NCBI GenBank assembly: GCA_026874595.1
Contig: CM049309.1
Span: 47,972,079 to 48,036,078 of the forward strand
Length of the DNA: 64,000 nt
Direction: 5' to 3'
Source: Sipunculus nudus
Lineage: Eukaryota; Annelida; Sipuncula; Golfingiida; Sipunculidae
The first letter of the stretch is position 1. The number at the start of each line of letters is the position of its first letter. Below the pieces are notes generated by a model that saw nothing but the letters and a program-made list of their open reading frames with translations, was not told the origin of the DNA and did no database searches. This document shows positions 8,650 through 58,261 of this stretch, piece by piece. The position numbers and the translations under genes were made by a program.

Positions 8650-11600
8650 CTAGACATTTCTTGGCACGGCAGGTGCCAGAGTATCCCCAGACATAGTAGG
8701 CCCCCCTCCTACAAGAACAGACCCCCATTTTTAGCAGCATATACTGACATTTGGCATATTTATTGTTTATTCCATATAACGATCCACAATCTTGTTGAAG
8801 ATGTTGGTCCTGTGACCTTGATCTTTTTAAAGATGTGTCCTGTGACCTTGACCTTTGATCTCATAACCCCAAAATCAATTTGGGTCTTGCTTTTCCAATG
8901 GGACATATGCTAGTCAAGTTTGAAATCTATACATCAATAAAGCAGGAATTATCATCCAGAAACTTATTTTTGGACAGATGGCTCCTGTGACCTTCACCTT
9001 TGACCTTGTGACCTCAAAACTGATAGTGTTGTTCCTCTCTTGGCAGGAGAACTATATGTGCAAGATGAAAGATATGAGATGAAATGTTTGGCTGAAAATG
9101 CATCCACATCTTTTTAAAGATGTGTCCTGTGACCTTGACCTTTGACCTCATGACCCCAAAATCAATTTTGGTCTTACTTTTCCAATGGGACATATACAAG
9201 TCAAGTTTGAAATCCATACATCAACTAGAATATCAGCAAAAGCTGACAAAAGCCCTCAGCCAAAAGAACAGTGTTTAGAGGTGGTAACAGTAACAAGTAC
9301 TAAATATCTGTTCTCACATGGTTGATATCTGTACATATCTCAGTTATAAATTTAAAATGGAGAGGTATGTACCATGATTCATAACAATCCACCAAATGCT
9401 TCCTGAAAAATAAGCTTCTAAGTTTTATTCTATTATAAGCTCTGTGACCTTGAGAGTAGGTCAAGGTCACCCATGTTCGAACATGAACGAGACTTTTGTC
9501 GATATACATCTTCACGAAAGAAATAAAATTCCTATTGTGATTCCTTTAAGAGATATCCCGCTCACAAGGCCAAAGTTGAAAAATCCAAGAAAAATTCAAT
9601 AAAAAATCAGAAATTGCAGGTGGCGCCCCCAAACTTGTGCAGCAGTTACAGACCATCAGTCCCTATGATCATAGTAAGTATTGTGAAAATCCATCCAATG
9701 GTTCCTGAGAAATAAGCTTCTAAATGTTTTTTCTATAATCAGCTCTAAAACGTAGAAAAATAGGTCAAGGTCACCCATCTTCGAACTTGACCGAGATTTT
9801 GTCAATATACATCTTCTCCGAAAAATAAAATTCTTATGGTGAATCCTTTTCGAGATATCCTGCTCACAAGCCCAAAGTTGAAAAATCCGATAAAAATTCA
9901 TTAAAAATCAGAAATTGTAGGTGGCGCCACCAAACTTGTATAGCAGGTACAGACTATCAGTCCCAATAACCATAGTAAGTTTTGTGAAAATCCACCAAAT
10001 GGTTCCTGAGTAATAAGCATCTAAGTGTTTTTTCTATAATCAGCTCTAAAACGTAGAAAAATAGGTCAAGGTCACCCATCTTCAAACTTGACCGAGATTT
10101 TGTCAATATACATCTTCTCCGAAAAAATATAATTCTTACGGTGAATCCTTTTCGAGATATCCCGCTCACAAGCCCAAAGTTGAAAAATCCGATAAAAATT
10201 CATTAAAAATCAGAAATTGTAGGTGGCGCCACCAAACTTGTATAGCAGGTACAGACTATCAGTCCCAATAACCATAGTAAGTTTTGTGAAAATCCACCAA
10301 ATGGTTCCTGATTAATAAGCATCTAAGTGTTTTTCTATAATCAGCTCTAAAATGTAGAAAAATAGGTCAAGGTCACCCATCTTCGAACTTGACCGAGATT
10401 TTGTCGATATACATCTTTACCGAGGAAATAAAATTCTGACGGTGAATCCTTTTCAAGATATCCCGCTCACAAGGTAAAAGTTAACGGACGCCAGACGGAC
10501 GGACGGACGGACAGCTTGGGTGATGACAATAGCCCATCAGCCTAAGGGCTGAGGGCTAATAAAAGCAGGAATTATCATCCAGAAACTAATTTTTGGACAT
10601 ATGGCTCCTGTGACCTTCATCTTTGACCTTGTGACCTCAAAATTGATAGGGGTCTTCCACTCTTGGCAGGTAAACTATATGTGCAAGAGGAAAGATCTGA
10701 GATGAATTGTTTGGCTGAAAATGCATCCACAATCTTTTTAAAGAGGTTTCCTGTGACCTTGACCTTTGACCCCATGACCCCAAAATCAATTTGGGTCTTG
10801 CTTTTCTAATGGGTCAATAACAAAGCCACGTTTGAAATCCATACATCAGTAAAAGAAGGAATTATCATCCAGAAACTAATTTTTGGACAGATGGCTCCTG
10901 TGAACTTCACCTTTGACCTTGTGACCTCAAAATTGATAGGGTTCTTCCTCTCTTGGCAGGTGAACTATATGTGCAAGATGAAAGATCTGAGATGAAATGT
11001 TTGGCTGAAAATGCATCCACATCTTTTTAAAGATGTGACCTTGACCTTTGACCTCATGACCCCAAAATCAATTTGGGTCTTGCTTTTCCAATGGGACATA
11101 TATAAGTCAAGTTTGAAATCCATACATCAATAAAAGCAGGAATTATCATCCAGAAACTAATTTTTGGACATATGGCTCCTGTGACCTTCACCTTTGACCT
11201 TGTGACCTCAAAATTGATAGGGATCTTCCACTCTTGGCAGGATAACTATATGTGCAAGATGAAAGATCTGAGATGAATTGTTTGGCTGAAAATGCATCCA
11301 CAATCTTTTTATAGAGGTTTCCTGTGACTTTGACCTTTGCCCTCATGACCCCAAATTCAATTCCGGTCTTGCTTTTCAAATGGGTCAAATACAAGTCAAG
11401 TTTGAAATCCAAACATCAATAAAAGAAGGAATTATCATCCAGAAACTAATTTTTGGACAGATGGCTCCTGCGACCTTCACCTTTGACTTTGTGACCTCAA
11501 AATTGATTGGGTTCTTCCTCTCTTGGCAGGTGAACTATATGTGCAAGATGAAAGATCTGAGATGAAATGTTTGGCTGAAAATGCATCCACATCTTTTTAA

Positions 11601-20399: not shown

Positions 20400-22456
20400 T
20401 AAGGCCAAAATAAAAAAAATGTATGGTTCTCAGGCACTTTTTTTCAGAAATCAATGCGGGCGGGCGCTTTTTTTATTTTAAATTTTTGGTATGTTTCGAT
20501 AAAAATGTCAAATGATAAGGGAAAAGCATGAAAATAACAGTTTTATTTTGATAAATAAGTAAAAGCACTACAAAACAAAGGAAATTGTATGGTTTTATCT
20601 TCTTGAAAGAAAAATGTTGGGGCGGCAGCAGCTCAAAATTGGAAAGTTTTTATCGAAAATCAAAATAAAAATGTTTGATGCGGGGGTTTAAAATTGATGC
20701 GGGCGGTGCCTGAGAACCATACCTTTAATTGTATCCGCCAAAACAGAGTTTTGCGGATACTATGTTTTCAGCTGGTCGCCGCCGCCGCCGCCGCCGCCGC
20801 GTAGGTGTCCGGAGAACTCCTCCGTAACCGCTGGGCGGAATTTTCCGAAACCCGGGATTATGTTCGGGTCACATGTGAACTGCTGCGCCCCGATTTTGTT
20901 TTGACCTCTGACCTTTCCTCTGCGCTCTGCGTCCGTTTGTGCGTCTGTTTCCACACATAAACCCACATATCTCGGGAACCGTTTGACCGATCAGGAAAAT
21001 TTTTTTGCACAAATGTAGCCCTCGGAGAGCTTTATAACATACACCAAAAATGGTGGCGCCACCTGCAACCATGTTTGCACAGTGTCCATCTGTTCGTCTG
21101 CCTTGGGTTAAAATCACTCATATCTCTGCAGTGACTTGACTAATTCACCTGAAATTCGGCATGCGCAAACATCCTGGATAGCTTTTCTGATTTTATGACA
21201 GGTGGCGCCACCTACATTCACGTTGACGCTGCAGACATCCAAGCTCATATCTCGGGAACCGTTTGACCGATCAGGAAAATTCTTTTGCACAAATGTAGCC
21301 CTTGGAGAGCTTTATAACATACACCAAAAATGGTGGCGCCACCTGCAACCATGTTTGCACAGTGTCCATCTGTTCGTCTGCCTTGGGTTAAAATCACTCA
21401 TATCTCTGCAGTGACTTGACTAATTCACCTGAAATTTGGCATGCGTATACATCCTGGATAGCTTATCTGATTTTATGACAGGTGGCGCCACCTACATTCA
21501 CGTTTACGCTGCAGACATCCAAGCTCATATCTTGGGAACCGTTTGACCGATCAGGAAAATTCTTTTGCACAAATGTAGCCCTTGGAGAGCTTTATAACAT
21601 ACACCAAAAATGGTGCCACTACCTGCAACCATGTTTGTACAGTGTCCATCTGTTTGTCTGCCTTGGGTTAAAATCACTCATATCTCTGCAGTGACTTGAC
21701 TAATTCACCTGAAATTTGGCATGCGTATACATCCTGGATAGCTTTTCTGATTTTATGACAGGTGGCGCCACCTACATTCATGTTTACGCTGCAGACATCC
21801 AAGCTCATATCTCAGGAACCGTTTGATTGATCAGGAAAATTTTTTTGCACAAATGTAGCCCTTGGAGAGCTTTATAACATACACCAAAAATGGTGGCGCC
21901 ACCTGCAACCATGTTTGCACAGTGTCCATCTGTTCGTCTGCCTTGGGTTAAAATCACTCATATCTCTGCAGTGACTTGACTAATTCACCTGAAATTTGGC
22001 ATGCGTATACATCCTGGATAGCTTATCTGATTTTATGACAGGTGGCGCCACCTACAATCAAGTTTACGCTGCAGACATCCAAGCTCATATCTAGGGAACA
22101 GTTTGACCAATTGGACCAAAATTTTGCATGTGTATAGTTCTCACAAAGCTCTTTATCATACGCTAAACTGGTGGCGCCACCTGCAACCCTTTTTTGCACA
22201 GCGTCCATCTGTTTGTCTGCCAAGGGCAAAAATCACTCATATACAATATAGTGGTTTGACTTATCTGCCTTAAATTTTGCATATGTATACAACTTGGACG
22301 GCTTTCTGGGTTTTTTGGTAGGTAGCGCAACCTACATACACAATTTGGCTGCAGACATCCATGCTGATATGCAACACTTCACCCGTTCCACTCTGATTTA
22401 GGCGGATACAAGTAGTCGCTTGTCGACTACCCGTATTCTAGTTTTTTTTGGCCTAA
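20400..22456. mobile_element. MITE-like element interrupted by a Helitron-like insertion
   Basis: A roughly 340-bp element with inverted ends: GTATGGTTCTCAGGCAC near the left and GTGCCTGAGAACCATAC near the right, extended by AGGCCAAAA and TTTTTTGGCCT. Its last 15 bases (22442-22456) are separated from the rest (20400-20728) by the element at 20729-22441. The intact sister copy is at 60450-60788. The inside holds GCGGGCGGGCGC and TTGATGCGGGCGG runs. It has no ORF; superfamily unknown. Confidence 0.8.
20729..22441 (+). mobile_element. Helitron-like element with GGTGGCGCCACC array, copy 1
   Basis: 1713 bp. It begins TTGTATCCGCC with a 5' hairpin (GTATCCGC/GCGGATAC, inner AAAAC/GTTTT), then (CGC)8. 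It ends with hairpin GTAGTCG-CTTGT-CGACTAC, seven bases, CTAG at 22438-22441. The body is a 280-bp tandem array of two diverged ~140-bp halves, each centred on GGTGGCGCCACC. It lies between AA and TT of a MITE whose intact copy (60450-60788) shows the empty site, apart from one extra T in a T run. Frames starting MAPPTFT are the array read through, not genes. The design resembles bivalve pearl/BIV160-type elements, by inference. Confidence 0.85.
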
Positions 22457-22891
22457 CTCAATATGCTGTCAGGCCCGATGTGTAAGATACGGGTAAAATG
22501 ATGGCATTAACATTCCTAAACAACATGACATGCCATTAGCCATACTTTTGTAACAACCTATCCTGCTGTAAGAAAACACAGGAGGAGTCTATTGACAATC
22601 ACTCTCTCATGGCTGAAGCCCCTACAGAAGCTTAACATATTCATGTGTGTACCCGAAACATGATAGTCTTCAATATATAGTCTAAAACAGGAATATCTTA
22701 AGTTAATATTATTTTTGCAACTTATCAGGGAAATTATAGTTAAGTAATTTCTTTATAAACATAACAGAAATCTTGAAACCTAGCCATATGTGAGTAAAAT
22801 GTGACACTGTTAATGCTCTAACCACTCCAGTGGCTTCGGTTAATCTTCCATCTCTAATACATGATTAGTAATAAAGTTAAATATTTCATTT

Positions 22892-22985
22892 AATTTTCAA
22901 CTAAATAAGATGCCTTGTCCCTATAGATCATTTCTTAATTGTATCCGCCAAAACAGAGTTTTGCGGATACTATGTTTTCAGCTGG

Positions 22986-23016
<31 letters not shown>

Positions 23017-25246
23017 GTAGGTGTCCGGAGAACTCCTCCGTAACCACTGGGCGGAATTTTCCGAAACCCGGGATTATGTTCGGGTCACATGTGAACTGCT
23101 GCGCCCCGATTTTGTTTTGACCTCTGACCTTTCCTCTGCGCTCTGCGTCCGTTTGTGCGTCTGTTTCCACACATAAACCCACATATCTCGGGAACCGTTT
23201 GACCGATCAGGAAAATTTTTTTGCACAAATGTAGCCCTCGGAGAGCTTTATAACATACACCAAAATGGTGGCGCCACCTGCAACCATGTTTGCACAGTGT
23301 CCATCTGTTCGTCTGCCTTGGGTTAAAATCACTCATATCTCTGCAGTGACTTGACTAATTCACCTGAAATTCGGCATGCGCAAACATCCTGGATAGCTTA
23401 TCTGATTTTATGACAGGTGGCGCCACCTACATTCACGTTGACGCTGCAGACATCCAAGCTCATATCTCGGGAACCGTTTGACCGATCAGGAAAATTCTTT
23501 TGCACAAATGTAGCCCTTGGAGAGCTTTATAACATACACCAAAAATGGTGGCGCCACCTGCAACCATGTTTGCACAGTGTCCATCTGTTCGTCTGCCTTG
23601 GGTTAAAATCACTCATATCTCTGCAGTGACTTGACTAATTCACCTGAAATTTGGCATGCGTATACATCCTGGATAGCTTATCTGATTTTATGACAGGTGG
23701 CGCCACCTACATTCACGTTTACGCTGCAGACATCCAAGCTCATATCTCAGGAACCGTTTGACCGATCAGGAAAATTCTTTTGCACAAATGTAGCCCTTGG
23801 AGAGCTTTATAACATACACCAAAAATGGTGCCACTACCTGCAACCATGTTTGTACAGTGTCCATCTGTTTGTCTGCCTTGGGTTAAAATCACTCATATCT
23901 CTGCAGTGACTTGACTAATTCACCTGAAATTTGGCATGCGTATACATCCTGGATAGCTTTTCTGATTTTATGACAGGTGGCGCCACCTACATTCATGTTA
24001 ACGCTGCAGACATCCAAGCTCATATCTCAGGAACCGTTTGATTGATCAGGAAAATTTTTTTGCACAAATGTAGCCCTTGGAGAGCTTTATAACATACACC
24101 AAAAATGGTGGCGCCACCTGCAACCATGTTTGCACAGTGTCCATCTGTTCGTCTGCCTTGGGTTAAAATCACTCATATCTCTGCAGTGACTTGACTAATT
24201 CACCTGAAATTTGGCATGCGTATACATCCTGGATAGCTTATCTGATTTTATGACAGGTGGCGCCACCTACAATCAAGTTTACGCTGCAGACATCCAAGCT
24301 CATATCTAGGGAACAGTTTGACCAATTGGGCCAAAATTTTGCATGTGTATAGTTCTCACAAAGCTCTTTATCATACGCTAAACTGGTGGCGCCACCTGCA
24401 ACCCTTTTTTGCACAGCGTCCATCTGTTTGTCTGCCAAGGGCAAAAATCACTCATATACAATATAGTGGTTTGACTTATCTGCCTTAAATTTTGCATATG
24501 TATACAACTTGGACGGCTTTCTGGGTTTTTTGGTAGGTAGCGCAACCTACATACACAATTTGGCTGCAGACATCCATGCTGATATGCAACACTTCACCCG
24601 TTCCACTCTGATTTAGGCGGATACAAGTAGTCGCTTGTCGACTACCCGTATTCTAGTTTTGATTCTAAACAAAAGGCTTGACCCCGTCAATTAGCAAACT
24701 GAATAGAATTTTCTAAATTCAGAGTATAAAGGTAACAACAAAAACACTACTATTCACAGACAATATTACTGTTGCCTTATTTTAAAAAATATTAATTATT
24801 TTCAAGTTATATGTACACAAACCATGGTTATTGTATCTATATATAAAACAACTACCTGTTTACAATGGCACAGAAACACAGCAAATATTATGTCACTAAT
24901 GAAAAGCTATTTTGTAAATATTATGTCAATTTTCAACTAAATAAGATGCCTTGTCCCTATAGATCATTTCTTAATTTTGATTCTAAACAAAAGGCTTGAC
25001 CCCGTCAATTAGCAAACTGCATAGAATTTTCTAAATTCAGAGTATAAAGGTAACAACAAAAACACTACTATTCACTGACAATATAACTGTTGCCTTATTA
25101 TAAAAAATATTTAATTATTTTCAAGTTATATGTACACAAACCATGGTTATTGTATCTATATATAAAACAACTACCTGTTTACAATGGCACAGAAACACAG
25201 CAAATATTATGTCACTAATGAAAAGCTATTTTGTAAATATTATGTC
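22892..25246 (+). repeat. 319-bp local tandem duplication, first unit interrupted
   Basis: Unit 1 is 22892-22938 plus 24657-24927 (318 bp) and unit 2 is 24928-25246 (319 bp). Both run from AATTTTCAACTAAATAAGAT to AATATTATGTC with few differences. Unit 1 contains the Helitron-like copy at 22939-24656 and unit 2 is the empty site. No gene content. Confidence 0.88.
22939..24656 (+). mobile_element. Helitron-like element with GGTGGCGCCACC array, copy 2
   Basis: 1718 bp and nearly identical to copy 1. The length difference comes from (CGC)10 versus (CGC)8 and one A lost near 23265. The termini and hairpins are the same. It sits at CTTAA|TTTTGATTC; the uninterrupted version of that site is at 24974/24975 in the second unit of a local tandem duplication, so it inserted between A and T without target duplication. 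Near-identity but unrelated flanks mean two separate, recent insertions. Confidence 0.87.
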
Positions 25247-25694: not shown

Positions 25695-28548
25695 CTAGAA
25701 TATGGGTAGTCGACAAGGGACTATGTGTATCTGCAGAAATCAGAGTGATATAGTTAAAGTGAGGCATGGATTAAGTGGCAAGCGTAATAAAATGAGGTGT
25801 GTTTCATATTAGCATGGATGTCTGCAGCGTAAACGTGAATGTAGGTGGTGCCACCTGTCATAAAATCGAGAAAATTGTCCAAGATGTATAAACCTGCAAA
25901 ATTTCAGGTGAATTAGTCAAACCACTGCTGAGACATGAGCAATTTTATCCAAAGGCAGATGAACAGATGGACGCTGTGCATAAATGGTTGCAGGTGGCGC
26001 CACCAGTTTTGCCCATGATGAAGAGCTATGTGAGATCCATACACATGCAAAATTTTGGCCAAATCGTTCAAACGGTTCCCGAGATATGAGCTTGGATGTA
26101 TGCACAGTAAATGTGAATGTAGGTGGCGCCACCTGTCATAAAATCGAGAGAACTGTCCAGGATGTATAAACTTGCAAAATATCAGGTCGATAAGTTAAAC
26201 AACCACTGCTGAGATATGAGTGATTTTATCAAAAGGCAGATGAACAGATGGATGCTGTGCATAAATGGTTCCAGGTGGCGCCACCAGTTTTGCCTATGAC
26301 GAAGGGCTATCTGAGATCTATACACATGCAAAATTTTGGCCAAATTGTTCAAACAATTCCCGAGATATGAGCTTGGATGTATGCAAAGTAAATGTGAATG
26401 TAGGTGGCGCCACCTGTCATAAAATCGAGAAAGCTGTCCAGGATGTATAAACCTGCAAAATATCAGGTGGATAAGTCAAACAACCACTGCTGAGATAGTG
26501 GTGTTTTTATCCCAAGGCAGATGAACAGATGGATACTGTGCATAAATGTTTGCAGGTGGCGCCACCAGTTTTACCTATGATGAAGAGCTATGTGAGATCT
26601 TATACACATGCAAAATTTTGCCCCAATCGGTCAAACGGTTCCAGAGATATGAGCTTGGAAGTCTGCAGAGTAAATGTGAATGTAAGTGGCGCCACCTTTC
26701 AGATAATCGAGAAAACTGCCCAGGATGTAAAAACCTGCAAAATTTCAGGTGGATAAGTTAAACAACAGCTGAGATATGAGTGATTTTATCCAAAGGCAGA
26801 TGAACAGATGGGTGCTGGGCATAAATGGTTCCAGGTGGCGCCACCAGTTTTGCCTCTGATGAAGGGCTATCTGAGATCCATACACATGCAAATTTTGGCC
26901 CAATCGGTCAAACGGTTCCCGAGATATGAGCTAAGATGTCTGGAGAGTTAATGTGAAAGAAGGTGGCGCCATCTTTCATAAAATCGAGAAACCTGTCCAT
27001 GATGTATAAACCTGCAAAATTTTAGGTGGATAAGTCAAATCACTGCTGAGATATGAGTGATTTTAACCCAAGGCATATGAACAGATGGGTGCTGTGCATA
27101 AATGTTCCAGGTGGCGCCACCAATTTTGCCTATGATGAAGGGCTATCCGAGATCTATACACATGCAAAATTTTGGCCCAATCCGTCAAACGGTTTCAGAG
27201 ATATGAGCTTGGATGTCTGCAGAGTAAACGTGAATGTAGTAGCGCCACCTGTCATAAAAATCAAGAAAGCTGTCGAGGATGTATAAACCTGCAAAATTTC
27301 AGGTGGATAAGTCAAACCACTGCTGAGATATAAGTGATATTATCCCAAGGCAGATGAACAGATGGACACTGTGCAAAAATGGTTGCGGGTGGCGCCACCA
27401 TTTTTAGTGTATGTTATAAAGCTATCAAAGGGCTACATTTGTGCAAAATTTTTAGCCTGACTGGTCAAATGGTTCCCAAGATATGCGGGTTTATGTGTGG
27501 AAACAGACGCACAAATGGACGCTGGGCAGCAAGGAAAGGTCAGAGGTCAACCAAAAATGAGGGCACAGCAGTTCATATGTGACTTGATGATAAACCTGAT
27601 TCGCTTAAAATGCAAACCAAGTTTTTTCAAACAGTTGAAAGATAAAGTTCCAATAATCTTGGAATTCTGCATCTAAACATTGTGTCTAGACGTCTAGACA
27701 CAGCCTCTAGACGTCTAGACACATTGTCTAGACACCCCCCCCCCCCAGCCAAGTCAGTTGCCATGGTGATGTCTGGACCCCACCTGTTTGTACTGAGTGA
27801 CCTCTTGACTTGGCTGCTGAAACTCGGCAAGTTGTCAAATCTGTTTTCAAATATAGAAAGCCTTTTTCAATTGGCTACAATGCTATTTTAAAGCTGTTTT
27901 TACCCAATATATTCTTATAAAACTGGCGGAACCCTACAATAGAATAATTCTTGTAAAGTTTAAACCAATCAGCTTAACAGTTTCATCATAAATCAGTGTA
28001 TAAGCTTGAAGAGTTAAAAACTACATTTTCGCTTGCAAAAAACCCATCAATGTAGGTGGCGCCACCAATACCTCAAATCAGATATGACATATGTGACAAA
28101 CATTGACATAAAATTTGGTGATTATACCTCAAGCCGTTTCTGAGATTTTAATTTTAGTGTGCTTTTTTGGACAGATGACTAAGTTCAACCTCCTGTAACT
28201 CGGCCAAAAATCTCCGAACTGGAACCATTCGTACAAACTTGAGAAAGATTGTTCCAGGGATCATTTCTGTGAAATATTGGACAATTTGGCTGGACAGTTT
28301 CAGAGAAGAAGATTTTTAAAGGTTTTTAAGCTTTTTCTCTCTAAAATCTAAATTAATGCAGATACCCAATAATAAGCTCCAGGGCACCAAGTTTCACATG
28401 TGACTAATTCTTACATGTAATTTGGAGCTGCTAGCTCCCACGGTTTCTGACTTACAGCCATGGACAGCGGAAAGCCAGCCCTGGACAGCGGACAGCTGAT
28501 GACGGATGGACAACGCTGCGCCATCGCATAAGCTCACAGGTTCGCTAA
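25695..28548 (-). mobile_element. Helitron-like element, inverted relative with GGTGGCGCCACC array
   Basis: On the minus strand it begins TTAGCGAACCTGTGAGC (28548), preceded by A, and ends GACTACCCATATTCTAG (25695) followed by T. The 3' end is homologous to copies 1 and 2 but its 5' end belongs to another type, so it may be a mosaic. The array has units near 25.84, 26.12, 26.40, 26.68, 26.96 and 27.24 kb with GGTGGCGCCACC palindromes. A leader at 27.6-28.5 kb contains four GTCTAGAC sites and a C tract. No transposition gene; the short frames are repeat-derived. Confidence 0.75.
27684..27733. repeat. Second cluster of four GTCTAGAC sites
   Basis: GTCTAGAC occurs at 27684, 27692, 27713 and 27726, with CTCTAGAC between, in the element at 25695-28548. 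The layout is the same as the cluster at 13584, so it is inherited within the family; a C tract follows. Confidence 0.75.
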
Positions 28549-28655: not shown

Positions 28656-28829
28656 ACTTTTTTTAAAATATTTGTGCCGTTGGGCACAGCCTTCCCATTA
28701 AACCTGCAGAGCGCTCACCCTGGGAGGGGGCTGACCGTGAAAAATCCTCACCGCCTCAGCTGAGATTCGAACTCACCATCTCTGGGCCCTCAGTCCTGTG
28801 CTCTATCCCTGAGCTACAGAAGCCAGTTT
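28656..28829 (-). mobile_element. tRNA-derived SINE
   Basis: On the minus strand the head reads like a tRNA: A box TAGCTCAGGGATAGAGC and B box GAGTTCGAATCTC, with D-stem (GCTC/GAGC) and T-stem (TGAG/CTCA) pairing. A GC-rich non-tRNA body and an AT-rich tail follow. The 10-bp direct repeat TGGTATCATA flanks it (28646-28655 and 28830-28839), the hallmark of reverse-transcribed insertion. The B box shows it is not a working tRNA gene on its own. Confidence 0.85.
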
Positions 28830-35948: not shown

Positions 35949-37113
35949 CTATAATATGGGTAGTCGACAAGTGACTATGTGTATCTGCCGAAATCAGAGT
36001 GGGAAAGGTGAAGTGAGGCATGGATTGAGTGGCAAAGGGAAATAGAGTGAGGTGTGTTGCATATTAGCATGGATGTCTGCAACCAAAATGTGAATGTAGG
36101 TGGCGCCACCTACCACAAAATCAAGAAGGCTATCCAAGTTGTATACATATGCAAATTTTAGCCAGATAAGTCAAACCACTATTTGAATATGAGTGATTTT
36201 ATCCCACAGCAGACAAACAGAAGGTGGCTGTGCAAAAATGGTGGCAGGTGGCACCACCAGTTTGTGTACGATTAAGAGCTATGTGAGATCTATACACAAG
36301 CAAAATTTCAGGGGGATATGTCAAACCAGTCTTGAGATATAAGCCTGAATGTTTGCAGCGTTAACATAAATGTAGGTGGAGCCACCTGCCACAAAATCAA
36401 GAAAGCTATCAAAGATGTATAAACCTGCAAAATTTTATGGCAGATAAGTCAAAGTCACTCAAACCACTGCCGAGATATGAGTGATTTTATCCCACGGCAG
36501 ACAAACAGATGGACGCTGTGCCAAAATGGTTGCAGGTGGCGCCACCAGTTTTGTGTATGATAAAAAGCTATGTTAGATCTACACACATGAAAAATTTCAA
36601 AAGGATATGTGAAACCAGTCTTAATAATAAGCCTGTATGTCTGCAGCTTGAATGTGAACGTAGGTGGCACCACCTGTCATAAAATCAAGATAGCTTTCCA
36701 GGATGTATACACATGCAAAATTTCAGGTGGATAAGTCCAACCAATGCAGAGATATGAGTGATATTATCCTAAGGCAGATGAACAGATGGACGCTGAGCAA
36801 ATTGTTGCATGTGGTGCCACCATTTTTAATGTATCTTATACAGCTACTCAAGGGCTACATTTGTGCAAAATTTTTAGCCTGAATGGTCAAAAGGTTCCTG
36901 AGATATATGTGGATTTGTGTGTGGAAACAAATGCACTAAAGGACACTGGGCAGAGGAAAGGTAAGATGTCAACCAAAAATGAGGGCGCAGCAGTTCACAT
37001 GTGACCCGATCATAATTCTGAATTTTAAAAAATTCCGCCCTCTGGTTACGGAGGAGTTCTCGGGTACCTATGCTGACGCATAGGTGTCCAACTGAAAACA
37101 TAGTATCCCCAAA
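35949..37113 (-). mobile_element. Degenerate Helitron-like element with GGTGGCGCCACC units
   Basis: Its left (3') end matches copies 1 and 2 in opposite orientation (GGGTAGTCGACAAG), but CTAG has decayed to ATAG. Units with GGTGGCGCCACC or GGTGGCACCACC recur at about 36100, 36245, 36375, 36540 and 36665. The right end keeps GAAAACATAGTATCCCC but has lost the partner arm of the 5' hairpin, so the right boundary is approximate. It interrupts the outer element at a TCACATTTTAAA site. Confidence 0.6.
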
Positions 37114-47912: not shown

Positions 47913-49060
47913 CAAAACAAGAGTTTTGCGGATACTAATGTTTTCACACGGGTTTCGCCGTCCCCGCCGCCGCATTCGTTTCCGGTGAACTCCTCTGAGA
48001 CCCTTGGACCGATCATTCCGAAAAGAAGCATAATTATTCGGTTACATGTGAACTGGTGCCTTACAAAGAATGGTGGCACCACCTGCAATCTCTTTTGTGC
48101 AGTATGAATCTGGGTGTATTACTGCTAACAGCCAATATCTCGGGAGTGGTTGTATGTATTGGGTGGAAATAGTACATGTCCATAGATCTTTGGATACCCC
48201 CAACTCATATTCGAGACTGGTGGCGCCACCTACAATCATTTTTGCGTGGCGACCATCCATACCTTTGCTTTGGGTAAATAATCACCCATATCTCAGGAGT
48301 GTTCAATATTGCTCTGAAATTTAGCATGTCCACCTATCTTGAAGAGTTTTGTCGTAGACCAGACAGAGGGCGCCACCTACCTTCCCGTTTTAGTAGAATA
48401 CATTGGTCCCCTTTCTTAGGAGCGGTTTGCCGTATTGGCCTGAAATTGTGCAGGTTTATAGATCTTAGATACCTCCATTTCATACTCAAGATTGGTTGTG
48501 CCATTTCGATTGTTTCCGCGTGGCGTCCATCCGTCCGTTTGCTTTGGGTGAAAATCGGTCATATCTCAGGAGTGGGTGGATATATCAGCCTGAAATTTTG
48601 CTTGATTATCCGTCTTGGATAGTTCGTTTTAGATCAGACAGGTAGCGCCACCTGCTGTTTCTATTTGTTAAATACATTTATGCACTTTTTCACGGTTGTG
48701 GTTTGGTGTCTCGTCCTGATATTTTGCATGTTCTCTTGGGTAGATTTCTCATTCACGAGACTAGTTGCACCACCTGCAATCACGCATTTGCAGAATACGT
48801 TCATGCATTTATCTCAGGACTGTTTGAATGTTTCATCCTGAAATTTCACATGCCCATAGATTTTAGATACTTCCATCCCACACTGAAGACTCGTGGCGCC
48901 ATCTGCAATCGTTTTTGCATGGCGTTCATCCATGCGTTTGCTTTAGGTAAAAATCACTTTTATCACAGGAGTGGTTCAATGAAGGGATCTGAAAATCGGC
49001 ATGTCCATCCATCTTAGATAGTTTACTCGTACACTAGACAGGGGGCGCCACCAAGATTGT
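47913..49060 (+). mobile_element. Old Helitron-like element with GGCGCCACC units
   Basis: It begins TTGTATCC and keeps the 5' hairpin (AAAAC/GTTTT inner arms, GGATAC), followed by ATGTTTTCA and a CGCCG-rich stretch as in copies 1 and 2. Diverged units with GGTGGC(A/G)CCACC, GGGCGCCACC, GTGGCGCCATC or TAGCGCCACC recur at about 48074, 48221, 48370, 48645, 48895 and 49046. The right end is not defined. The frames at 48070-48324, 48299-48622 and 48703-49017 are repeat frames. Confidence 0.6.
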
Positions 49061-50611: not shown

Positions 50612-53296
50612 TTCAGATTATTACGTCTCATACCATTTGTATCTGGAAACTATAACACACATCAGAGTCTTTACAGAGAGGCTAAAATATGTATTTTGTA
50701 ATGTTTGCGGAAATGTTAGTGTTACAGTCGAATTTTGATGTTTTCAAGGAATATACGATCATTAAAATTTAAATAGCCGTGCATAAAAGTGGAATACCTC
50801 TTGAAAAATCAAAGACCTGAATTAACTTAAATGTTAAAAGAGATTAGTCTATCTTTTTTTTAAAATAAATAATGAGTTAATAGATAGGCCTACTTTTTTT
50901 CAATATCCATCTGTAGTACACTGGTTTTATGATGGATTGTGTAATCAAATATTGACATATAGATAATTATATAAAATGGGCACTGTTTGTTTATTCATTA
51001 TTTAACGGCGCGGGGTAAGTTTCGTTTGCACACAAAATTTCTGCGCTAAATTTGAACTGGCTGTCATGTATTTGATTACGTCAAACAATAACTGTCATAT
51101 CTCAACAGATTTATCTTTTTATATTCAAATTTACCAACGAATCAGACAGACCTTTGTGTCAGATTTAAGTATAAATATATCAGTCTCTTCACCGGTTTAT
51201 AAAATCATTGGTATGTGCATGCGTGTTCAAAAATGTTGAAGGAATTAAGAATGATGGTTTTAGACGCCTTGAAATAATATATATATATAACTCACACATT
51301 TTATTAAAGTTAGTTTTCAGGTTTCAGGTTTTTCAGATTTCAGAAATATCTTTTTATTTACGTAGTTTAAACCCGCTGTTAATCCTGTTATACTCTTCAA
51401 TGTATTCCGGTCAAACAAAAAAAGTTCTACTGCGTGGCCCATAACACTGGAGTTAGTGGCAACATCTACCAGGATAATACTGACTAGTTCATAAAATGAA
51501 GTCCAGATGGCGCAAGTCAACATTTTTGGACTACAAGTCTTCATTCAACAGCCAGGGCTCATGGCATTAAAAACATCTTCATATTCGAAAAATAAAAGCA
51601 AGCAGTTGAAAAATGTACGTCTTCTTCACAATCTATATAAATTTAAATATAAATGCATTGAGCAATAAAGGAAATACCACTGTGAAAGCAAAATAAGTCA
51701 AAGTATTAAAAAATATCTTTTTTTTATACAATTAAATCTTGTCTTAAAATACCAGCTGATGTATGTTATATTTCAAAATATAAAAAAATGATAATATCTC
51801 GTCAATGGTAAACAAGAAAGAAAATATTCACGTTTTGTGTTCTCACGTGAATCTGCTGAGGGATATCAGTCAGTGCTGCCCTCTATAAGTATATAAAATC
51901 ACTACTGGTCAATCTCAGTGTCTTTCTTGGAACATAAAATTAATGATTCAAGCGGTGTGCCTGGACAACACAAGTCCGTCTCGAATATTTATTTCTGATT
52001 ATACATTTCGCACTTAAAACGACCGGGCGTAATTAAATTCTAGACATATCAACGATGTAGAAGTCAGATCCGAGCGAATGAAAAGTGGCTGAACAAGGTG
52101 GTGATGACGGCAATGGCCATTTGTGTGTCTGGCTGTCTGCTTGCTGCTCGTGGTCTGTCTGAACTGAAGAAACAACCTGTGATTGTAGTGTCATATAAAC
52201 TTTCGAAAATAATGCTCTACGAAGTAAATACCTACAGTTCATGAAAAATTTTCGTGCAAATAGTGCATCTGCAAAAAAAATTCCTGAGTTTAGACACCTT
52301 GAATATTATTTTTATTTATTTTTTAATTTGTTACACCAGAAAATCGATATTCTGTTTCATTGCACATTGCACATTTCAGTAAGATTATTTGAAATATGGT
52401 TTATTCGAATAGTCAAAACATACCAAATGATTTATATATATGATTATTATATATTATGATTGATAATTATCATTTTTAAAAGTGGCGTCTACCATTATCG
52501 TTTTACTGTTATTGATGATGTTGCTTGTCTGTAGTTAAAATACCATTATAATCCTTATTATCCGTTTTATGAATGAATCAGAACAATATGTCTTAATCCC
52601 CCTCCCACCTACACACGCGCACACACTTATTTTTTATAAACTCATGAAGGACATAAAACAGTTCTCTCGGGTGCAATAACAATAATCTAATATACGATAT
52701 TATTTTAGTGATTTCATTTAGCTGACTCAATAATTAAACATTTAAATAATAATATTTATATACGCAGATTCATGATATAATATCAGTATATGCATTTTTT
52801 CGTACATATTTGCACCCTTGGTCAAATATCTGATAATATTCTAGTATATAACCGAGCTGATGTCTCCTAGGCTAATACTAAATGATCGCTGTTCATTATG
52901 ACGAATCTAATCCGACTGCATGACAGATCAATGACGATGATCTCTTGGGTATGGATTATCTCTGCATGATGACCATTTTAACAATATACTTCCTGTAAAG
53001 CTTCTCTTTTCACATTCCCAAGTAGTCGCACCTGGTTTCCCACGAACCTAACCCCAGACGAATTTGTAACAGAAACTACTTGTATACAATACCGCATGTA
53101 TCTCATCTGATAAAAAATGTTCATTACTGCCCAAAATGAGTTCAACGCCTGATTACACAGTCTAGTAATGCATGTCTTCATTTTCTTCGCTTCCAGTATC
53201 AAATTAGGTATTCAAATAAATGCCCGCATACGGGCGACATGTCGTTTTCAGGAGGATTGGCGTGTTTCGCTATCACAGGCTGTTCGTTTGGCGTGG

Positions 53297-53312
53297 CAGA
53301 CACCCAGGCGCC
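53297..53312 (-). promoter_or_regulatory. Bipartite BMP/Smad response element GGCGCC-N5-GTCTG
   Basis: On the minus strand the sequence reads GGCGCC TGGGT GTCTG. This fits the Drosophila Smad/Schnurri silencer consensus GRCGNC(N5)GTCTG and the GGCGCC plus GTCTG layout of vertebrate BMP response elements such as those of Id genes. GGCGCC is the Smad1/5 (Mad) half and GTCTG the Smad4 (Medea) half. It lies about 73 bp upstream of a TATA run and 3.4 kb before the I-Smad start codon. I-Smad genes are known direct BMP targets in many animals. The match is exact; function is inferred. Confidence 0.6.
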
Positions 53313-53384
53313 TCAACCAGCACTTCACGCCCGAGTGCTGACTAGTGAGCCATGCCTGTCTAATTTGCGTCTGAAACTTCCAGG

Positions 53385-53470
53385 TATATATATAGTAATA
53401 CCAAATCATCCGTAGAGAGTTCAGTCAGGGAAGCTTCTTGGGAACGCGCAGGCGACCAAAAATGTTACAG
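53385..53470 (+). promoter_or_regulatory. Candidate core promoter and short first exon upstream of the I-Smad gene
   Basis: TATATATATA (53385-53394) is followed about 30-38 bases later by TCAGTC (53421-53426), which resembles an initiator. The sequence then runs to a splice-donor-like CAG|GTAATA at 53470. This could be a TATA/Inr promoter with a mostly noncoding leader exon of about 48 bases spliced to the I-Smad exon. An ATG at 53462 (ATG TTA CAG) would otherwise start a coding exon of another gene. No clear acceptor was identified. The start site is inferred. Confidence 0.35.
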
Positions 53471-54229
53471 GTAATATTTCATGCAGTTGTCATGTTGAAG
53501 ACAATCTTTCATATATCAGATTTCTTATTTATAAGTCTGAAATGCCATTTTATCTTTTTATAAATCAAAATGTATATTTATACCAAAGTGGATAATGACA
53601 TTATACCTATTTTAAATGTCATGGTATGGTAAATAATTAAATTAAACAACATTTTTTTGTTTAATGGCAACTTTCATTCGTAATTCTTTCCATGTGATCT
53701 TTTGTGTGATTTTCATATTATTGCGAATAAATAAGTGTAATTGTCAGTTTGAAATACATACTTTTCGGTAATGCGATATCACATAACGTTAGGTTACTTT
53801 GCATGTGCACTTTATTGAAGAGTGCGCATGCAGCATCTTTCAAAACTGCGCTATTTAAACTTCTTCTGTGAAAGTTTAACTATCATAAGTCCAGTATCAA
53901 TTGACACTTGATATCAATGAAGTGCGTAACCTGTGAAAGAGTTTATAAAGTTAGCGAACATTCAGGGGTGAAGCTCCCAACTGCGTTATTAAGAAAACGC
54001 TTCCTCGGCTATAAACATATTTTAAGTTTGAGATACTCAGGACATGTGGTTCATTAACGGCGACAGCGTGACATGTGGGGCGACCCTTGTTTAATAACAC
54101 CTTTGAACGAATTACTGGGTAGGCCTGGTCGAGTGAGCCATTATAGTCTATTTAGTGCGGTCTGCAAACTATCTTAACATAATCGTTTTCACCAAACGTA
54201 CAATTAGCACTTGCTTAGCCCCTGGCAAA

Positions 54230-54640
54230 ACTGTGCGCCAGTGTCCCCTTTACGACACTCGGCAGGATATATAGAAAACCCTGTTATTTGACAAACCGGT
54301 ACAAAATCGGTCAAGAGTGACCGTTAGGGGATGTATTGGCTGACCACGCGCCGCAGGGCATCTGCCAATTGCATAATTAGCCCGTGGCGCGGTAATTAAC
54401 AAGACGCCTCGATGTCCAGACGGCCACTTGCGGGTGTTGTGGGCAGATATAGGTGTGAAGAGCGCGTGGTCGACCAAGCAGATTACACCCCTCACCAAGG
54501 CGCCGGGCGACAAGGGGCTTTGGCGCCAGCTGTCCGAAGCTAATGCGGTTAAAACGGTCCATTAACTAATTGCCATTAATCCCTATGCCGCTACTGGACA
54601 GCCTCTCCATTAACGTCCCTCGCCTGGCATAAGAACCGTT
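54230..54640. promoter_or_regulatory. GC-rich unique block, candidate cis-regulatory module
   Basis: This block is clearly more GC-rich than its surroundings, has no repeat signature and no supported ORF. It holds TTGGCGCCAGCTGTCC near 54520 (a GGCGCC followed by GTCC) and GTCCAGAC near 54415. It sits about 2.1-2.5 kb before the I-Smad start codon. The overlapping minus-strand frames (87 and 61 codons) show no recognisable domain and are read as chance frames in GC-rich DNA. Confidence 0.3.
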
Positions 54641-54946
54641 TGTATTACAGTTATCTCGGTTTAAGATAATTTAGATGGTTATGAACTCAGTTAAATCTCA
54701 AATTGTGCTTAACTGTAAAGCAAGCAATTCTGGCTGTTCCTGTTAAACTGGCATTTGTTAATGAGTCCATATGTATATATTACATTGAAAACAATTTAAC
54801 GAAAACCCTTTAATGTAATTAACATTTCTATGTGTAAATAATTAATATACCTAATTTTCTTTAATCCCTTTCCTTATCCGCTAGATGGCTTCTGCATGCA
54901 TAGCGTTCACTTGCGGAATTCTGTAAAAGCGCAACATAAATCCGAT

Positions 54947-54947
<1 letters not shown>

Positions 54948-54978
<31 letters not shown>
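54948..54978. repeat. (GA)n microsatellite upstream of the I-Smad gene
   Basis: A pure GA tract of about 31 bases, 1.7 kb before the I-Smad start codon. GA tracts near promoters can bind GAGA-type factors; no evidence for that here. Confidence 0.95.
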
Positions 54979-54981
<3 letters not shown>

Positions 54982-55992
54982 CGTATCACATTGCAATTAA
55001 ATACAGTTCTACCTTGCTGCAACTCACACTCAATCTGAATCAAACTTCCACTCACCAATGTAAGTGTAGTTTAATTTTACAATTAAATCAGTACTTCAAT
55101 TGTGTATTTTTTTTCCATTCCTAAAAAATGAAAAACATATCGATTTAATTAGAAGAATAATGACATTTAATTGAAATTTTGGTTATTGAAATTATGCAGT
55201 TATATATAAAATATAAATAAAATGTAAAATATAAAAACCTTTCCTATGTCCTCAAACAAGAATTATATCAAATTCATAAAAAAACTGTTCGAAATTTGCT
55301 GATCCCCTTTCTTTATTCCAGTATAATAGAATAATCATAGCATTTATATAAACCTTCTTTTTAATCAACGTTTCACTTTTATCAATTGATCACCTCTGAA
55401 AATGTAAAATGAAATAAGGAAGAAAAAATATCACATTGAATGATGAACAATATTTTATTTTCCATTTAAAAGAGAAAAAGGTATTATTATCCGTTCTTTC
55501 CATAGCGGTAATAATTGATGTTCCGACGTTTATGGAAATAAAAGTAGCTGTTAGACTGTAACGTTACATGGTATTTTACAGTCAAGGTTCTCCGGAAGTT
55601 CTGGCATAGTTCCTTTTTCTTTATTTCTAACAATAAACCTAAACCTGCCACCTATGGTGATATGACCCACCGACAGCGAAATATGGCAATAAAAATGTAG
55701 GGTACGATCTCACAGCTATAAGATACCGCTCAAGTGAGAACATCCCCGTAACACCGCGTGCTGCTCCACTGGTGGCTGGGCGGAAACTACGAAAGTGAGT
55801 AAATGTACTAGAGGAAAAGTTACGCAAATTTCCCCTTTTAATAGTTAATATGTAACGTAATAAATGCAGGTAAGACAGAAAGACGCTTGAGAGAGTGGTA
55901 TTTATGATTTTACGCAGGTTGACTCGAGTACTTGCAGAAACTTGATATGTTATTTGTGCAACAATCACTGTAGACAGTGGCCGCGCCATGGA

Positions 55993-56000
55993 GTCTAGAC
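55993..56000. promoter_or_regulatory. Palindromic Smad-binding element GTCTAGAC
   Basis: The perfect 8-bp palindrome GTCTAGAC is the optimal Smad3/4 binding element and is the site through which vertebrate Smad7 promoters respond to TGF-beta. Here it is 690 bp before the I-Smad start codon, in non-repetitive sequence. Apart from the two repeat clusters near 13.6 and 27.7 kb it is the only copy noticed in the window. It suggests autoregulatory feedback; binding is inferred. Confidence 0.5.
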
Positions 56001-56265
56001 GAGCCATGTGACCATTTCCGACCAATCATGACACTCCTACTCGGGAGCTCATAGCCGCTTGCCGGTATGAAAACTTCGCTGCCATGGGTGAAAGACATTT
56101 TTGCTGGACAGAAAAGTCCATTTAGACGTGCCTTTCTCGTTCTTTTGCTCCTACATTAGTTGATAGTGCTCTAGTGGTGCGCCTGTCAATACAAGTATTC
56201 ACGGGCCAGAGCAAACTAGCATTGTGCAGGCGCCATTGACGGTGAACTCTGACCCGCCACCCCTC

Positions 56266-56300
56266 TATAATACAATAGGCTCGCCTGTGGAGCCGCCGTG
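56266..56300 (+). promoter_or_regulatory. Possible proximal TATA box of the I-Smad gene
   Basis: CTATAATACA at 56265-56274 lies about 420 bp before the start codon in GC-richer unique sequence. A start site about 30 bp downstream would give a 5' UTR of roughly 390 bases. No initiator is obvious. It competes with the upstream candidate at 53.4 kb, and both may be used. Confidence 0.25.
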
Positions 56301-56654
56301 CTGCCAATATCGGTGATGTTTTGAAGTGCTTTGCCTTGGAGTATACTGAGAGAACGAGGGATCTGCAGTTTTAACATTGTAATGCTCGCAGGAGTTTATG
56401 TGTAGACAGCCAGCCAAATCCACAGTCTTTGCTGCAGTGAGCAGTGCTGATAAAACCCCCCTTCAATACAGGCGTGCTTTCGTGCTGTGGCGACGATTCG
56501 GGGGCCTTCGCCAATAGTCCTGGCTCCGAAGGGACTGGGCCCGAAATAGCAAGGGCTCCGTGTATCTGGCTGCATAGCCTGGCCTTCGGGGGCATACTAG
56601 CACTATAATCACATCTATCATTGCTTTTGTAGAGTTCACAAGTCAACTTCGTTG

Positions 56655-56720
56655 ATGAAAATTTCACCAGAAAAGATCCCCGATGGTTCATGTTTCGCTC
56701 TAAGCGAAACGGCCTCGTGA
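56655..56720 (+). promoter_or_regulatory. Two upstream ORFs overlapping the I-Smad start codon
   Basis: One upstream ATG at 56655 opens a 21-codon frame ending TGA at 56720. A second at 56683 opens a six-codon frame ending TAA at 56703. Both overlap the real start (56690) in other frames. Such overlapping uORFs usually lower translation of the main frame, which would suit a dosage-sensitive feedback inhibitor. They matter only if transcription starts upstream of 56655. The frames are read directly; the effect is inferred. Confidence 0.5.
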
Positions 56721-57089
56721 AACGCCTGTGGAAGTTGAGGGTTTTGACTGAAGATGAAACGTGGGGTACGGATGAAAGCCCAGAAGTTTTAGAAGTGAAA
56801 TCTGTCATTCACTCGGTGCTTAAAAGGCTTAAAGAAAAGCAGTTGGAGTGTTTAATAAGTTCATTGGAGAGCAAAGGTGGTGAAACCACGGGTTGTGTAT
56901 TGTTACCAAAGGGAGAAATACGAATAGGGCGGAGGACCGTTCAACCACAAATGATGTGTTGTCAAATCTGGAGATGGCCCAATGTGGACCATAATCACAA
57001 ATTAAAAAGATTACCGTGTTGTACATCTGCGGATGACCCCGGGTTTACCTGCTGCAACCCGTACCATTGGAGTATATTACTCGAACCTG
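56690..57089 (+). CDS. smad6/7: Inhibitory Smad (Smad6/7), coding exon 1: MH1 domain
   Basis: I-Smads are cytoplasmic/nuclear feedback inhibitors of BMP and TGF-beta signalling: they block type I receptors and recruit Smurf ubiquitin ligases. The exon opens with MFRSKRNGLVKRLW, the I-Smad N-terminal signature, which fixes the start although two other ATGs lie just upstream. It continues as an MH1 domain: helix VLKRLKEKQLECLI (about 43-56), CVLLPKGEIRIGRR (69-82), QIWRWPNV (92-99) and TCCNPYHW (120-127). C69, C110 or C111, C121 and H126 sit where MH1 zinc ligands are expected. By eye against Smad3, the DNA-contact residues R74, Q76 and K81 correspond to E76, R78 and T83, so canonical SBE contact is probably lost. 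The exon ends at a good donor (CCTG|GTGAGT) in phase 1; the open frame past the donor is intron read-through. Smad6 and Smad7 cannot be separated here; invertebrates usually have one I-Smad. Confidence 0.95.
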
Positions 57090-57800
57090 GTGAGTATATA
57101 CGTTGTTTACATGTGTATATTAGTGTAGCTGTCAACACGTGTTTACCTGAACAGTAGGCTATGTGAGGTCACGTTTTGTGGCACTGCAAAGCACAAGATG
57201 TTTGCTGTTTACAGTTATGTTCATTGAGTATTAAGTTGGTTAGCTCGTTTTATATGTGGAATTGACAAGAATAACATATTCAGTAATCTCCTGTGTGTAT
57301 TTAAAGTTCGTATTTTGTTGATACACCGCATGTAATTGGGGAGGGACATCTAGCTTGAAAGATGCGGGCCAGCTAGCGGGCGATGATAGGTGCAGCTCAG
57401 CCGGCTTGTCAATTTCACCTGTGACATTTCAGTGGCAAGTGCGCCCTGGAGAAATTGACCCAGCTTAGGGATTGTCGCAACATTGCTCTCTCTTATTGAT
57501 CAAGACCTGCATACAAGTGTGATTTTTGCACCAAGAATTTATGCCAATGCACCAGCGTGACTTTTTCACGGGCCACGCAAGAGCTTTAATGCATCTGTAG
57601 TCGAGGCCACGGCAGGGTTGCAAGTGTCGCCTTGCCAGGCCCCCCTTTATTGAAACACCGCAATTAGGGGATGGCGCCAGTCGCCGGTCTGAGTATGTTT
57701 ATCAGTCGGCAGTGGTGGCAATTATCTGACAGACTGCACGCTTAGCTCTACCCAATAAAACAACTCAACTTGAACTGTATCTCCTGTCTTTATTTTGCAG
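57090..57800 (+). other. smad6/7: I-Smad intron 1
   Basis: A 711-base intron, GC-richer than the window between about 57340 and 57760, with the GGCGCC/GTCTG pair. No repeat was recognised. Confidence 0.8.
57673..57691 (+). promoter_or_regulatory. GGCGCC and GTCTG pair in I-Smad intron 1
   Basis: GGCGCC (57673-57678) is followed eight bases later by GTCTG (57687-57691). The two halves match Smad1/5 and Smad4 sites, but the spacer is 8, not the 5 of the canonical element. They lie in a GC-richer part of intron 1 (about 57340-57760), a plausible intronic enhancer. Confidence 0.3.
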
Positions 57801-57854
57801 ATTCGCCTCCACCGCCCTACACAAAAGCTCAGTCCACACCGCGTTTGCCTCCAG
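57801..57854 (+). CDS. smad6/7: Inhibitory Smad (Smad6/7), coding exon 2: PY-motif linker
   Basis: A 54-base exon between TTTTGCAG| and CCAG|GTAAAT, phase 1 at both ends. Joined to exon 1 it reads DSPPPPYTKAQSTPRLPP. PPPPY is the PY motif that binds WW domains of Smurf-type HECT ubiquitin ligases, and SPPPPY is characteristic of Smad6/7 just after MH1. The phase match with exons 1 and 3 and the conserved motif make the splice call strong. The exon is symmetric (18 codons), so skipping it would remove the Smurf-binding motif without changing frame; whether that occurs cannot be seen from the sequence. Confidence 0.93.
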
Positions 57855-58261
57855 GTAAATCACGCACTGCTGGTGTCATATGCATGTTTGTTTGTGACAG
57901 TTCATGTGTCAGTTTGTCAGGGATGAACCAGATTTTAACGTATTTGTTGCATCATTGATGAAGATGACTAAAATAAGAAAAGAATGGGAGCAACATAGGT
58001 GAAGATTTGTTAAAATAAAATAAAAAATAATGACAGGAGGTTTTATAACGTCCAAGTTCACTTTAGTGCCATCAAATGTCAGGTTAAAAGGTGCTTAAAC
58101 CAATGTCATGTTACAGTCATATCTGAACTGAACATATAATTATGTGTCATCAGTTTACAGTTAAATCTTGAAGTTAAATGGAACATGAAGTTTAATGGAA
58201 CATCAAATATATAGTTAAAATATACCAATTAAAATAGTTATTTGATTATTACATACATAAC

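Follow-up and report, generated by a model that had tools for sequence, protein, structure and literature searches.

Introduction

The ID-type composite, GGCGCC-N5-GTCTG, was defined with reporters as the element that makes human ID1, ID2, and ID3 BMP-responsive (PMC11907993). In the passages of that study covered here, GGCGCC pairs responded at 5-bp spacing only, and the response weakened when the pairs were shifted 10–20 bp away from the promoter. The ID-type composite was inactive with an inverted SBE, and active but weaker when the whole composite was placed antisense (PMC11907993). Its linkers are TGGCT in ID1, AGAGA in ID2, and AGGCT in ID3, and they are enriched in G at position +2, +3, or both (PMC11907993). 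Composites of this kind are activating in vertebrates, and the Xenopus id3 form is described as working through Smad1/4 with Schnurri (PMC3439458).

Two related elements have been described in Drosophila. The GRCGNC-N5-GTCTG element of brinker is a silencer that recruits Schnurri (PMC3738585, PMC7669266), and the activation element GGCGCCA-N4-GNCV was first defined at dad, which encodes the fly I-Smad (PMC7669266, PMC10847725). Enrichment of a pSMAD1/5-bound BRE motif in Nematostella indicates Smad1/5 element use outside Bilateria (PMC10849676). In a limited search of the literature, nothing turned up on Smad elements in molluscs or annelids or on satellite repeats with Smad motifs; this speaks only weakly for their absence. 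I-Smad feedback is already known, as are this type of element and the way it works; the novelty here is a candidate member in an invertebrate, Sipunculus nudus, with a counterpart at an Id gene.

Results

The element under study lies in a stretch of 64,000 nucleotides, referred to as the window. A preliminary description of this DNA placed GGCGCC-N5-GTCTG, with an exact five-base spacer, on the minus strand about 73 bp before TATATATATA. The letters were verified (Table 1), the measured gap is 72 bp, and the observation is confirmed as correct. Read in gene direction, the element is CAGAC-ACCCA-GGCGCC. On its own strand GGCGCC is followed by GTCTG in the same sense across a linker of exactly 5 bp, the arrangement of the ID-type composite, and the site also satisfies the fly silencer consensus GRCGNC-N5-GTCTG with its terminal T. 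Each of these two patterns has a single match in the window, at this same site. Whole-window shuffles contained the exact form in 0 of 100 cases and the GRCGNC form in 3 of 100; when the local GC-richer DNA (53200–54650) was shuffled, the figures were 0 and 7 of 2000. The fetched I-Smad locus contained nothing that fits the fly activation consensus GGCGCCA-N4-GNCV.

Table 1. Features of the candidate regulatory region and the start of the I-Smad gene (window numbering; splice junctions are marked by a slash)
Feature	Position	Strand	Remarks
ID-type BMP composite GGCGCC-TGGGT-GTCTG	53297–53312	minus	pGC-SBE, 5-bp linker, SBE
Candidate TATA box TATATATATA	53385–53394	plus	
Candidate initiator TCAGTC	53421–53426	plus	A at 53423
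Candidate 48-bp 5' exon	53423–53470	plus	CAG/GTAATA end; from sequence and joining by rule
GC-/CpG-rich island, candidate enhancer	54200–54650		200-bp windows up to 59% GC
GACGCC-TCGAT-GTCC, degenerate Mad/Medea-type composite	54403–54417	plus	lacks the terminal T needed by fly Schnurri
GGCGCC site	54499–54504		
GGCGCC-AGCT-GTC composite (GGCGCC-N4-GTCC)	54522–54534	plus	4-bp spaced
Palindromic Smad-binding element GTCTAGAC	55993–56000		8 more sites in two window repeats
GGCGCC site, alternative start near 56.3 kb	56229–56234		about 30 bp before TATAATA (56266)
MH1 exon	56633–57089	plus	acceptor TTTTGTAG before 56633; donor CTG/GTGAGT at 57090; splice sites by eye
GGCGCC-N8-GTCTG, intron 1	57673–57691	plus	spacing not known to be functional
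PPPPY exon DSPPPPYTKAQ (PY motif, linker)	57801–57854	plus	phase matches MH1 exon

The adjoining gene encodes an inhibitory Smad of the Smad6/7 type, as had been proposed. An MH1 domain (PF03165, 3.8e-24) is found in the open frame from 56633, in which the start ATG at 56690 opens MFRSKRNGLVKRLWK (MFRSKR...), which is also the beginning of human SMAD6. The exon ends in a strong-looking donor, and the PPPPY exon follows. The MH2 exon is located 17 kb past the window end (L011:6869-7486). Its best match among PDB chains is SMAD7, at 222 bits vs 93 bits for SMAD2, and its C-terminus, CWLEVLLTVKR, carries no SSXS tail. The nine MH2 matches of the genome are distributed over four loci, comprising the I-Smad gene and three others that are taken to be R-Smads and Smad4.

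Between the composite and the MH1 exon, the TCAGTC and the donor-like CAG/GTAATA noted earlier are both present, the latter at 53468–53476 with 53470 as the last exon base. The distance from the candidate TATA box to the candidate initiator A is 36–38 bp by TATAWAWR, or 34 bp if counted from 53389 (the TATATAGT register), against a criterion of about 28–34 bp. Such pairs are not rare, as eight distinct initiators with a TATA partner at 28–38 bp occur in the window on the two strands; only the one at 53421 is followed by a donor-like sequence in the next 400 bp. A TATA/initiator promoter with a 5' exon is thus plausible, the letters being compatible with it rather than compelling. The candidate exon contains an ATG at 53462, and joining 53470 to 56633 keeps its frame into the MH1 exon; the predicted spliced product, MLQ-SSQVNFVDENFTRKDPRWF-MFRSKR (MLQ-SSQVNF...), would have a 22-residue N-terminal extension before MFRSKR. 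As chance gives a frame match one time in three, this agreement is suggestive only. A possible alternative is a start near 56.3 kb, without the 53470–56633 intron.

GGCGCC is widely seeded by repeats in this genome. The 4-bp spaced form, GGCGCC-N4-GTCTG, has 22,616 copies, an excess apparently carried by a repeat family, as most of the 100 matches listed are GGCGCCACCAGTCTG or close variants in units that are often spaced by about 336 bp. Related arrays in the window (9386–10473, 20966–24585, 25806–27405, and 36093–36827) contain GGTGGCGCCACC without the full N4 composite; the one N4 match of the window is at 48360. Under the rule adopted here, GGCGCC inside GTGGCGCC or GGCGCCAC was treated as repeat-type and dropped from counts, which removed 39 of 45 sites in the window and 26 of 37 in 200 kb of background taken at fixed steps on C1–C4. 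With so many sites of this kind, the GGCGCC at 53.3 kb could be regarded as a by-product of the GGTGGCGCCACC repeat family; however, the flanks of the element are unlike the family (CCAGGCGCCTC), and when the element and its surroundings, 291 bp in all, were searched against the genome, the self-match alone came back. On the strength of that search, the idea that the element came from a transposon or satellite was rejected as well. Within the sensitivity of the search, which skips very common words, descent from the repeat family is largely refuted, and we consider it highly improbable.

The N4 composite of the repeats is Smad-type, one base below the active spacing, and may represent a genome-wide decoy for Smads. 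Among the N5 matches listed, 15 copies of GGCGCC-AGTGA-GTCTG lie at C3:12.957-13.245 Mb, several of them at a constant offset of 93,311 bp, pointing to a tandem segmental duplication. A predicted tRNA-Leu (gag) on the minus strand of the window (28752–28823) has repeat-rich surroundings and could be a repeat-derived pseudogene.

Non-repeat GGCGCC sites are found in the window at 53307, 54499, 54522, 56229, 57673, and 62649, with none before 53.3 kb, so that five fall within 4.4 kb (53.3–57.7 kb). In the 40 kb downstream, further sites of this kind occur at 64806, 64966, 65963, 68579, 79366, 93052, 93145, and 93675 (window numbering). The 200-kb background contains 11 non-repeat sites, or 0.055 per kb. 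Dinucleotide shuffles reached five GGCGCC in 0 of 1000 cases for 53200–57800 and in 1 of 1000 for 52500–58000; these probabilities are generous, because the regions were picked after the sites were known. The island at 54200–54650 has a CpG observed/expected ratio of about 0.9–1.1, vs 0.48 for the window.

The preliminary description had also made its case depend on how often the motif occurs in the genome. GGCGCC-N5-GTCTG has 253 copies in 1,426,538,692 bases on 153 contigs, a density of about 0.011 (0.0113) per 64 kb, and a single match in the window is therefore uncommon. At 0.0018 per 10 kb, a gene with 5 kb on each side would be expected to have 0.0018 exact motifs beside it. The five-base spacing itself is not clearly in excess genome-wide, since the counts for N6 (213) and N7 (242) are close to that for N5. 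When linkers starting AC or AT were removed from all three sets as repeat-like, the distinct linkers on C1–C5 numbered 45 for N5, 27 for N6, and 33 for N7, the last being a hand count that omits four places without letters. The N5 excess is mild at best: the Poisson probability of 0.006 for 45 linkers against a fixed mean of 30 ignores both the uncertainty of the mean and the choice of filter. The places listed comprised 100 of 253 for N5 (to C6:31.6 Mb), 100 of 22,616 for N4, 100 of 213 for N6, and 100 of 242 for N7, 17 of them without letters; for N5 with a linker not starting with A, they comprised 100 of 116 (to C15). Spacer controls replaced a reversed-pattern control because the reversed hexamer is CpG-richer, with two CpG where the forward hexamer has only one. 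The meaning of the motif comes from its position, that is, from the five-site GGCGCC cluster and the composite near the Id gene described below.

As the ID-type composite is known from ID1, ID2, and ID3, the Id gene of this genome was predicted to carry GGCGCC-N5-GTCTG. Four Id-like matches were found, on C4 and C11, of which one is a clear Id gene (C4:67829032-67829157, HLH, 69% identity, 3.9e-13); the next three have values of 0.001 or weaker. An exact GGCGCC-AGCAT-GTCTG is present at C4:67827561, 1.5 kb from the Id gene on its 3' side. On the opposite side of this GGCGCC, 5 bp away, stands GTCA, which makes a fly-type activation element as well, and two more such elements precede the first ATG of the Id reading frame by 0.6–0.7 kb. 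The 10 kb around the Id gene (C4:67824501-67834500, L036) thus contain three fly-type activation elements, vs one in the 200-kb background. The I-Smad and Id loci each have 3 GGCGCC per 3 kb, while the first 8 genome N5 matches listed have at most 2.

The complete C1 list places no exact motif less than 10 Mb from the two Msx copies at C1:51.8 Mb; for BAMBI (C13:38.66 Mb), the matches listed, all with linkers not starting with A, include none closer than 6 Mb. On C4, a further two Smad loci lack an exact motif within 0.7 Mb, and the remaining Smad locus, on C10, has none nearby among the matches listed. An exact composite within 5 kb is therefore seen for two of four BMP target families, namely I-Smad, which was the given one, and Id, and not for Msx or, among the matches listed, BAMBI.

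Two further places drew attention through their linkers. The other place with the linker TGGGT, C1:29432837, has no GGCGCC cluster and no recognised target. At C12:41.892 Mb (L035:4914-4950), GGCGCC-TGGCT-GTCTG, with exactly the human ID1 linker, stands in tandem with GGCGCC-AGTTT-GTCTA in AT-rich surroundings. Both C1:29432837 and C12:41891935 were rejected as Id genes from the positions of the four Id-like matches and inspection of the open reading frame lists by eye.

These data bear on whether the composite arose by chance in promoter DNA rich in CpG, in which case the BMP response of the I-Smad gene may use the island at 54.4–54.55 kb or the introns. The similar genome rates of N5, N6, and N7, the two Msx copies without a motif, and the frequency of TATA and initiator words in AT-rich DNA agree with such a match. 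Against it stand the 0.0018 matches expected within 5 kb either side of a gene, the appearance of a second match at the Id gene in a follow-up test, and clustering of GGCGCC beyond composition-matched shuffles. We therefore judge a chance match unlikely, although it is the likeliest of the competing explanations considered here.

Discussion

It is probable, though by no means assured, that 53297–53312 serves the I-Smad gene as a BMP response element, through which pSmad1/5–Smad4 binding raises I-Smad transcription. In the proposed mechanism, active BMP receptors would lead to phosphorylated Smad1/5 on GGCGCC, with Smad4 or a second Smad on GTCTG, the two sitting back-to-back over the 5-bp linker. 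With this complex in place, the I-Smad promoter would become more active, and the protein made would dampen the receptor signal. We infer Smad binding, activation rather than repression, and the identity of the promoter served, for which the TATA/initiator pair at 53.42 kb and a start near 56.3 kb are the candidates.

The BMP response element is argued for by the exact ID-type motif with its 5-bp spacing, SBE orientation, and ID1-like linker, and by the I-Smad identity of the gene, the five-site GGCGCC cluster, the Id composite, and the very low number of motifs expected beside a gene. The antisense placement also counts for it, because human cells still responded to an antisense composite, though less strongly. 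Distance counts against it: the candidate start is about 119 bp away, and the human reporter response fell when GGCGCC pairs were moved 10–20 bp further out. Also counting against it are the lack of a clear N5 excess, the Msx genes and (among the matches listed) BAMBI without a motif, the silencing of fly genes by the same letters via Schnurri, and the absence of a dad-type consensus at the I-Smad locus.

The preliminary description had based a conserved negative-feedback promoter on the fly GRCGNC-N5-GTCTG element. Its broad negative-feedback interpretation is probably right, and the I-Smad gene, the exact ID-type composite, the GGCGCC cluster, and the Id composite all support it. The fly rule does not hold as its basis: in flies GRCGNC-N5-GTCTG is a Schnurri silencer, and dad uses GGCGCCA-N4-GNCV. 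It is thus the vertebrate ID rule, rather than the fly one, that leads to feedback activation.

The fly silencer logic would have the opposite outcome, in that a Smad complex with a Schnurri/HIVEP-type corepressor would let BMP lower I-Smad transcription. The strict GRCGNC-N5-GTCTG consensus is present, including the 5-nt linker and terminal T needed by Schnurri. However, dad is activated by Mad–Medea in fly wing discs (PMC10847725), SMAD6 is induced by BMP4 in human breast cancer lines (PMC5225521), and the fly Schnurri fingers that mediate silencing are said, in the passages covered, to be absent from vertebrate homologues (PMC10853822). The same composite also occurs at the Id gene here, beside activation-type elements, and since this gene has both, activation is the better reading for I-Smad. 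Silencing through the composite is accordingly regarded as a poor prospect, less likely still than a chance match.

Taken as a BMP response element, the composite and its Id counterpart suggest an ordinary but very old feedback switch. A bolder scheme is offered tentatively, as one that we think may well be wrong: the ID-type composite would be an ancestral bilaterian feedback module of Id and I-Smad, kept here at both genes, with fly-type activation elements in addition at Id, while in insects dad would have switched to the activation element and the ancestral letters would have taken on a new role as a Schnurri silencer. If true, one 16-bp regulatory grammar would link two typical BMP targets across distant animals, and whether the ancestral composite was activating or silencing would become testable in one species at two loci. 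The element would also provide a specific candidate, open to mutation, for negative feedback on BMP in an animal outside the usual models.

For the Nematostella BRE, an I-Smad target is not named and the composite is not spelled out in the passages covered (PMC10849676). With the brinker silencer (PMC3738585) the element shares the full strict consensus, but as one strict copy in the window rather than many; in addition, the adjoining gene is expected to be BMP-activated, and Schnurri recruitment is putative. The dad activation element belongs to a gene of orthologous role and has the same Smad half-sites; here, T replaces A after GGCGCC and the last position is also T, so the dad consensus is not satisfied, and dad-type matches are seen at Id (three) rather than in the fetched I-Smad locus. 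The ID-type composites of ID1, ID2, and ID3 differ in gene context, as the gene here is an I-Smad and not an Id gene, with the element about 119 bp before the candidate start and antisense to the gene. All 11 fixed bases, the 5-bp spacing, and the SBE orientation are nevertheless alike (PMC11907993; Id2 form also PMC3439458), and the linker TGGGT, with G at +2 and +3, is one base apart from the TGGCT of human ID1 (PMC11907993).
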